Notes under the pieces: model-generated
The model's database searches: none
The model's input: the letters and a program-made list of their open reading frames with translations, nothing else
Told to the model about the DNA's origin: nothing
Program-made: the position numbers and the translations under genes
Part shown: in pieces, positions 9,677 through 19,805 of the stretch
How the letters are laid out: each line of letters opens with the position of its first letter
Numbering within the stretch: position 1 is the stretch's first letter
DNA from: Candidatus Woesearchaeota archaeon
Lineage (GTDB): Archaea; Nanobdellota; Nanobdellia; Woesearchaeales; JAGVYF01
DNA length: 43,784 nucleotides
Reading direction: 5' to 3'
Assembly: GCA_018303425.1 (NCBI GenBank)
Contig: JAGVYF010000032.1
Location: 1 to 43,784 of the forward strand

Positions 9677-9780
9677 GGGGGCGTAGCATAACCTGGTCAG
9701 TGTAGCCGGCTCCAATATGGGTCCGTGTTCAAAATAATTTTTAAGAAAAATTTAAGTTAATGAAAATCACGGCGTCCCCA
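9677..9780 (+). tRNA. tRNA-Trp (CCA) with T-loop intron and a defective-looking anticodon arm
   Basis: The acceptor stem GGGGGCG (9677-9683) pairs with CGTCCCC (9773-9779), including one G-T pair, and A9780 is the discriminator. D-stem GCAT pairs with GTGT around the loop AACCTGGTCA. The anticodon loop CTCCAAT holds CCA after the conserved T33. T-stem CCGTG (9723-9727) pairs perfectly with CACGG (9768-9772). The T-loop is interrupted by a 33-nt BHB intron (9734-9766); removal gives the canonical loop TTCAAAT and a 71-nt tRNA. The anticodon stem keeps only about 3 of 5 pairs (C-G, C-G, G-T), and the variable region is about 1 nt instead of 4-5, so roughly 4 nt are missing. CCA is not encoded. 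The identity is convincing, but function of the mature RNA is uncertain. Confidence 0.7.
9734..9766 (+). other. 33-nt BHB intron at tRNA-Trp position 59/60
   Basis: The exon 4-mer TTCA (9728-9731) pairs with the intron 3' 4-mer TGAA (9761-9764), forming the 4-bp central helix. It is flanked by 3-nt bulges AAA (9732-9734) and AAT (9765-9767). Cutting after the second base of each bulge removes exactly 9734-9766. The T-stem is the outer helix. An internal hairpin AATTTTT-AAG-AAAAATT lies at 9736-9752. Confidence 0.75.
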
Positions 9781-19308: not shown

Positions 19309-19554
19309 TAACAACATCCCCATACAATTTTTTCTCAATTAATTTTCCAAACGCCAATTTTATTAACAGGAGATTTGGAATTTAATTTTTCATCTTACAT
19401 AATTTTTTTTATTTGTGCCACATTCTTATATATTTTATATTCAATTTTCTGCAAATAAGTTTAATTCGTTTACTTCGTGTATAGACCACACTAACATCTA
19501 TATAAACTTTTCGTTAGAAACCCTTAAAAAGAGCAAAAAATCACTTAAGATAAT
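19309..19554. other. intergenic region before tRNA-Arg
   Basis: About 245 bp. It holds the divergent promoters of the ARH operon and tRNA-Arg. CTATATAAAC (about 19499-19508) and CTTAAAAAG (about 19523-19531, 26-28 nt before the tRNA) are TATA candidates. No gene or RNA was found in it. Confidence 0.35.
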
Positions 19555-19577
19555 GCACCCGTAGCGCAGTCTGGACA

Positions 19578-19617
19578 TAGCAAATCTTGATTTATGAGAT
19601 TTCCTTTGGGGCAAATA
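19578..19617 (+). other. D-loop intron of tRNA-Arg, boundaries approximate
   Basis: An insertion of about 40 nt lies between the D-loop bases GGACA and the D-stem 3' strand GCGC. It contains a hairpin AAATCT (19582-19587) with AGATTT (19597-19602). Direct repeats ATAGC (19577-19581 and 19615-19619) make the exact joints ambiguous by 2 nt, and no perfect BHB was found, so the motif is probably relaxed. Confidence 0.6.
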
Positions 19618-19655
19618 GCGCGACAGCCTCCTAAGCTGTAGGTCGGGAGTTCGAA

Positions 19656-19676
19656 ATGAATTAAATTCAGCGAAAA
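19656..19676 (+). other. 21-nt BHB intron at tRNA-Arg position 59/60
   Basis: Exon TTCG (19650-19653) pairs with intron CGAA (19671-19674), with 3-nt bulges AAA (19654-19656) and AAT (19675-19677). Cutting after the second bulge base gives the canonical T-loop TTCGAAT. An inner hairpin TGAAT-TAA-ATTCA (19657-19669) completes the motif. The geometry is the same as in tRNA-Trp. Confidence 0.8.
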
Positions 19677-19731
19677 TCTCCCCGGGTGCGTTCATATTCA
19701 CAATCATCACAATTAGATTTAGTGAGGTTAA

Positions 19732-19805
19732 GCTTACAAAGTAAGCGCACACCGCACTTGTTTTTCCCGGGTTTTATTAAAATGCAGGTAGGGTGTGCTA
19801 TTTTT
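19732..19805 (+). terminator. two hairpins and a T-run between tRNA-Arg and the glycosidase gene
   Basis: GCTTAC-AAA-GTAAGC (19732-19746) is followed directly by GCACACC (19747-19753), which pairs with GGTGTGC (19792-19798), and then by a T-run (19801-19806). It ends just before the ATG at 19810. It looks like a terminator or attenuator, or a structured leader of the glycosidase mRNA. Confidence 0.45.

Follow-up and report, generated by a model that had tools for sequence, protein, structure and literature searches.

The tRNA-Arg(CCT) gene is located at positions 19555-19690 on the forward strand of a 43,784-nt contig (the window). It extends from nucleotide 1 to the discriminator base G73, CCA is not encoded, and three exons on this strand are separated by two introns. 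Exon 1 (19555-19574) comprises the 5′ strands of the acceptor stem and the D-stem and the D-loop as far as G19 (AGTCTGG), a boundary taken from intron-free orthologues. A D-loop intron of 40 nt (19575-19614) follows at site 19/20. Exon 2 (19615-19655) carries ATA, the 3′ strand of the D-stem, the anticodon arm with CTCCTAA and the variable loop AGGTC; its 3′ part contributes the 5′ strand of the T-stem and the T-loop to A59. A T-loop intron of 21 nt (19656-19676) interrupts site 59/60, and the minimum-energy fold places a hairpin, TGAAT/ATTCA, within it. Exon 3 (19677-19690) adds T60, the 3′ strands of the T-stem and the acceptor stem, and G73. The complete layout is GCACCCG-TA-GCGC-(D-loop, 50 nt)-GCGC-G-ACAGC-CTCCTAA-GCTGT-AGGTC-GGGAG-(T-loop, 28 nt)-CTCCC-CGGGTGC-G. 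The canonical 37/38 intron is absent, the anticodon loop being uninterrupted. A putative TATA-box-like element, TTAAAAAG, was read at 19524-19531 (+), about 28 nt upstream.

ARAGORN and Rfam report no tRNA in the raw window, and ARAGORN detects nothing in the unspliced gene or in either half-spliced form. After removal of both introns, the remaining 75 nt are called as tRNA-Arg(cct), and all stems pair throughout. This call bears out the sequence-only reading, which had placed an Arg(CCT) isotype here, with inserts of about 40 and 21 nt and four perfect stems once the D-loop and T-loop inserts are taken out. A custom tRNA finder permitting insertions gave the gene a score of 53, versus a best score of 43 in 20 Markov-shuffled windows. 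Folded without constraints, the 136-nt pre-tRNA already adopts the cloverleaf, from which the two introns project as lateral hairpins (−44.9 kcal/mol, z −2.6).

Orthologues were searched at the DNA level in 145 genomes of the same order, with matches in 90. Parsing yielded 61 distinct Arg(NCT) genes; one (L030) was not reliably readable and was left out, so that 60 were counted. D-loop introns occur in 17 of them, T-loop introns in 16 and both in 10, a co-occurrence with a one-sided Fisher p of 0.0009 when relatedness is ignored. Most of the remaining genes have D-loops such as AGTCTGGATA, found in the intron-free orthologues L041, L051 and L057, and T-loops TTCGAAT, as in the spliced product of the window gene. 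Both junctions are fixed by these genes, since intron-free orthologues of the same order show exactly the spliced loops. A member of the same family (G002, locus L113) has neither intron (AGTTTGGATA and TTCGAAT, respectively); the introns were therefore gained or lost between genera. It is highly improbable that the window gene is a pseudogene, or a tRNA damaged by a mobile element, with two insertions that are never removed. A tRNA-Arg(TCT) is also encoded (L002) and could partly cover the AGG codons, so that the cell might tolerate losing Arg(CCT), which counts against a functional two-intron gene. The use of AGG codons, at a frequency of 6.2 per 1000 across 19 ORFs of the window, counts in favour of one. 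A pseudogene is opposed by the four perfectly paired stems, by exons free of defects and by the many orthologues with introns at the same two sites and conserved BHB helices. The gene is also single-copy: a normal Arg(CCT) elsewhere, which would have weakened the initial claim, did not appear when the 96%-complete genome was searched at the DNA level; only this copy was returned.

In the D-loop, G15-T16-C17-T17a pairs with GGGC near the intron end, leaving a 5′ bulge GG↓A and a 3′ bulge AA↓A (arrows, junctions). Two 3-nt bulges and a 4-bp helix are thus present at this site as well as in the T-loop, though the D-loop helix includes two G-U pairs. On its own, this helix is weak (z −0.2), but it forms when the whole pre-tRNA is folded to minimum energy. 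The motif is classed as a relaxed BHB because the adjoining helices are imperfect. ATAGC is repeated at both edges of the D-loop, which makes shifted junctions possible; in a hand check of GGAC↓ATAGC and onward, no alternative yielded a 4-bp helix, and the orthologues place the junction after G19, against the shifted alternatives.

The 17 D-loop introns share the 19/20 junction and the 3′ end, have lengths of 16-87 nt and leave a 3′ bulge of AAA or AGA. Their helices vary (GTCT/GGAC, GTCT/GGGC, GCCT/GGGC, GTTT/GAAC and others), and the position 16 pair is T-A in eight genes, C-G in three and T-G in three. In total, 63 of 68 helix cells are paired, a number reached in 71 of 2000 shuffles. Across the 17 genes, conservation of the junction and 3′ end is strong and co-variation of the helix moderate. 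The two G-U pairs and the instability of the helix alone count against a gene with two introns. Together with the imperfect flanking helices, they would suit an arrangement in which only the T-loop intron is a genuine BHB intron and the D-loop insert is an expansion, kept in the mature tRNA or removed otherwise. Such an expansion is hardly to be expected in view of the junction and 3′ end common to 17 orthologues of widely differing intron length, and of intron-free orthologues with exactly the spliced 10-nt loop.

The T-arm forms a textbook BHB, with the helix TTCG (54-57)/CGAA and the bulges AA↓A and AA↓T (z −2.7); helix and bulges are part of the minimum-energy fold. The window encodes a second gene with an intron at 59/60, a tRNA-Trp(CCA)-like gene at 9677-9780 (+), whose intron of 33 nt lies at 9734-9766. 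The same T-loop geometry had been proposed for both tRNAs. Site and bulges agree; the helix does not, as it is TTCA/TGAA in tRNA-Trp. The difference from TTCG/CGAA is compensatory at position 57 and therefore strengthens the case. Acceptor, D and T arms of the tRNA-Trp gene are fine, and nt 38-43, the 3′ strand of the anticodon stem, are replaced by TAT. In the relatives L091 and L093, this position is occupied by a long anticodon-loop intron, after which comes ACCGGC. The genome yielded no further Trp gene, though TGG codons are common (10.9 per 1000). The apparent lack of the strand may reflect a deletion, an assembly error or unusual processing. The anticodon-loop introns of L091 (about 1530-1575) and L093 contain GCGATGA-like repeats resembling the boxes of C/D-box guide RNAs. 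Such boxes occur in other archaeal tRNA-Trp introns.

The genome (0.94 Mb, 96% complete) has nine tRNAs above the Rfam cut-off, compared with 14-43 in nine relatives. The tRNA genes located number about 31 and contain at least 40 introns in total, an incomplete list that corresponds to about 1.3 introns per gene; anticodons were assigned by hand from the loops. The tRNA-Lys(TTT) and tRNA-Leu(TAA) genes (L073, L086) apparently contain three introns each, in the D-loop, the anticodon loop and the T-loop. Use of 59/60 in unrelated tRNAs, suggested from the window, extends far beyond it: 20 genes of 15 amino-acid specificities have an intron of 21-94 nt at this site. They encode Arg(CCT, TCT, GCG), Gly(GCC, CCC), Ile(TAT, GAT), Ser(GCT), Ala(GGC, TGC), Glu, Phe, Asn, Asp, Lys, Tyr, Gln, Pro(GGG), Leu(TAA) and Trp. 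The site is used about as often as the anticodon loop, interrupted in about 18 tRNAs, a share biased upward by tRNAs located through two 59/60 pattern searches; 13 of the 20 genes are independent of these patterns, namely the window gene and 12 others at loci retrieved by a general tRNA model. The original remark that no intron occupies 37/38 is correct for tRNA-Arg(CCT) and wrong for the genome. The 59/60 pattern was also run over 279 genomes of the phylum and proved too noisy for general mapping; its excess over the control was clear in G000 (16 vs 2) and some others, not in most.

Because the exon side of the T-loop helix is the near-invariant TTCR, only position 57 is free to co-vary. It pairs with the intron base in 14 of 14 genes (G-C/T, A-T; permutation p 0.014) outside a subgroup of six genes with introns ending in AGAA, in which it never pairs. 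This subgroup consists of Ala-TGC, Glu, Phe, Ile-GAT, Asn and Asp (L011, L012, L016, L017, L073). It shows a 5′ junction ATATT, an end AGAAA(A/G), and three standard pairs plus a purine-A mismatch in place of a 4-bp helix. The AGAA-ending introns represent a relaxed motif that is conserved as a subgroup.

Two groups of related 59/60 introns were recognized, one in Gly(GCC), Ser(GCT), Gly(CCC), Ile(TAT) and Ala(GGC), the other in Phe, Ile(GAT) and Ala(TGC). The best intron pairs beat all 3800 shuffled pairs; the Arg(CCT) intron is in neither group. The pattern resembles a transposition of introns from one tRNA to another at the fixed 59/60 site. Introns of the first group with 86-94 nt (L001, L008, L012, L018) share CCGGGAAAAACA-GGC-hairpin-CACC. 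They possibly carry a small RNA, or are simply a transposed intron family. Downstream of tRNA-Arg(CCT), the window at 19710-19790 (−) reads CCCGGGAAAAACAAGTGCGGTGTGCGCTTAC... and resembles, by eye, the long 59/60 introns and also the D-loop intron of L046 (GTGCGGCATGCGCTAAAGCTTAGCCCCACGGGAAAA). Rfam contains no family for the long introns or this downstream region; matches to AbsR28 and GlsR9 were far under the cut-off and were discarded.

A single EndA protein (PF01974) of 176 aa from the ATG (open frame 176-184 aa), located at 26106-26627 of contig C3, and an RtcB (PF01139) are encoded in the genome. The EndA is closest to the alpha subunit of Nanoarchaeum equitans (3iey_A, E 6e-36), followed by the EndA of M. 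jannaschii (1a79_A). Its active-site region keeps the conserved Tyr, His and Lys (Y113, H123, K153/K154) in invariant alignment columns. The crenarchaea-specific loop K44-P45-R46 is lacking, with 9-11 residues missing relative to the enzymes of A. pernix and S. tokodaii; it is also missing in the EndA of eight relatives aligned with A. pernix. The three fused units of about 390 aa that define the epsilon2 (ARMAN) type are not found in this protein. Searches of the 96%-complete genome with PF01974 and an order-specific profile gave no beta subunit at E <= 10, although a very diverged beta, or one encoded in the absent 4%, could escape them. A second subunit was also not found (E up to 10) in four other genomes, two of them 100% complete. 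G015 (100% complete) combines one EndA match with an Arg(CCT) carrying both introns (L042).

Alpha4 EndA is described as narrow in specificity, and only the (alpha-beta)2 and epsilon2 types are reported to remove relaxed BHB introns efficiently (PMC6379350, PMC12397907). That the single EndA found belongs to a type described as narrow counts against the two-intron gene. The nanoarchaeon Nst1 has an alpha subunit, no beta found, and just two introns (PMC3655853). The present genome is an apparent exception to the rule on EndA types, subject to a missed beta subunit. Tentatively, and at somewhat less than even chances, a homomeric alpha-type EndA without CSL/ASL loops and without beta may remove relaxed BHB introns in the Woesearchaeales; relaxed here refers to the 19/20 D-loop introns and to T-loop introns with three standard pairs in the central helix.

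Very probably, the locus encodes a functional single-copy tRNA-Arg(CCT) of a Woesearchaeales-like archaeon, with a pre-tRNA that carries two archaeal BHB introns and would be spliced. Each intron is predicted to fold back and to pair four exon bases with its 3′ end; in the D-loop, nt 15-17a would face GGGC, and in the T-loop, T54-T55-C56-G57 would face CGAA. EndA would cut after the second nucleotide of each 3-nt bulge left by these pairings, and RtcB would ligate the exons to a standard 75-nt tRNA-Arg(CCU). As the T-loop helix is built on near-invariant TTCR, one intron 3′ end (YGAA-AN) could suit almost any tRNA, and 59/60 would be reused across tRNAs for this reason. Both introns sit in loops that meet as the elbow (G18/G19 with T55/C56). 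Since both elbow-forming loops are interrupted, we infer that the elbow forms only after splicing. Exon bases 15-19 and 54-59 would be locked in the BHBs, and tertiary folding, along with elbow-requiring enzymes, should wait for splicing. Expression, cleavage and ligation are likewise inferred.

Introns at 59/60, multiple introns and intron transposition have been described in the Thermoproteales (PMC4090602, PMC4033280, PMC8450103). Transposition between tRNAs at a fixed site is attributed to Fujishima 2010, as cited in PMC4090602. The likeness to Pyrobaculum and Thermofilum includes BHB introns off 37/38, several introns per tRNA and introns that are alike between unrelated tRNAs; the intron load is comparable, at about 1.3 per gene found here and 71 introns in 46 genes of P. 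calidifontis (same reviews). In contrast to the Thermoproteales, the present case concerns an AT-rich DPANN genome with 59/60 as dominant site, an EndA without the crenarchaeal loop and no beta found. The D-loop junction is 19/20, while the nearest site found listed is 20/21. Among EndA proteins with a solved structure, the (alpha-beta)2 enzyme of N. equitans (3IEY) is the closest; that species possesses split tRNAs and a beta subunit, whereas no beta was detected here. Permuted tRNAs of Thermofilum pendens and Cyanidioschyzon merolae are joined at the same 59/60 junction (PMC3218864), but the exons are in normal order here, with an intron between them. ARMAN-2 with its epsilon2 EndA (PMC12397907) is likewise an ultrasmall DPANN-type archaeon with noncanonical introns; its enzyme is a three-unit protein of 390 aa, the EndA here a single alpha unit of about 176 aa. 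A literature search found no paper on BHB tRNA introns in Woesearchaeota. New here are the lineage, 59/60 as dominant site and the enzyme context.

Among DPANN archaea, lineages other than ARMAN and Nanoarchaeum can thus come close to Pyrobaculum in tRNA introns per gene, and a standard tRNA model misses most of the tRNAs (9 of about 31 found exceed the Rfam cut-off). The universal TTCR T-loop can offer introns a preformed landing site. Given the EndA context, the hypothesis of an enzyme-intron co-evolution can be tested directly. If true, the homomeric reading of this EndA would break the published rule that a load of noncanonical introns goes with (alpha-beta)2 or epsilon2 enzymes that have auxiliary loops.
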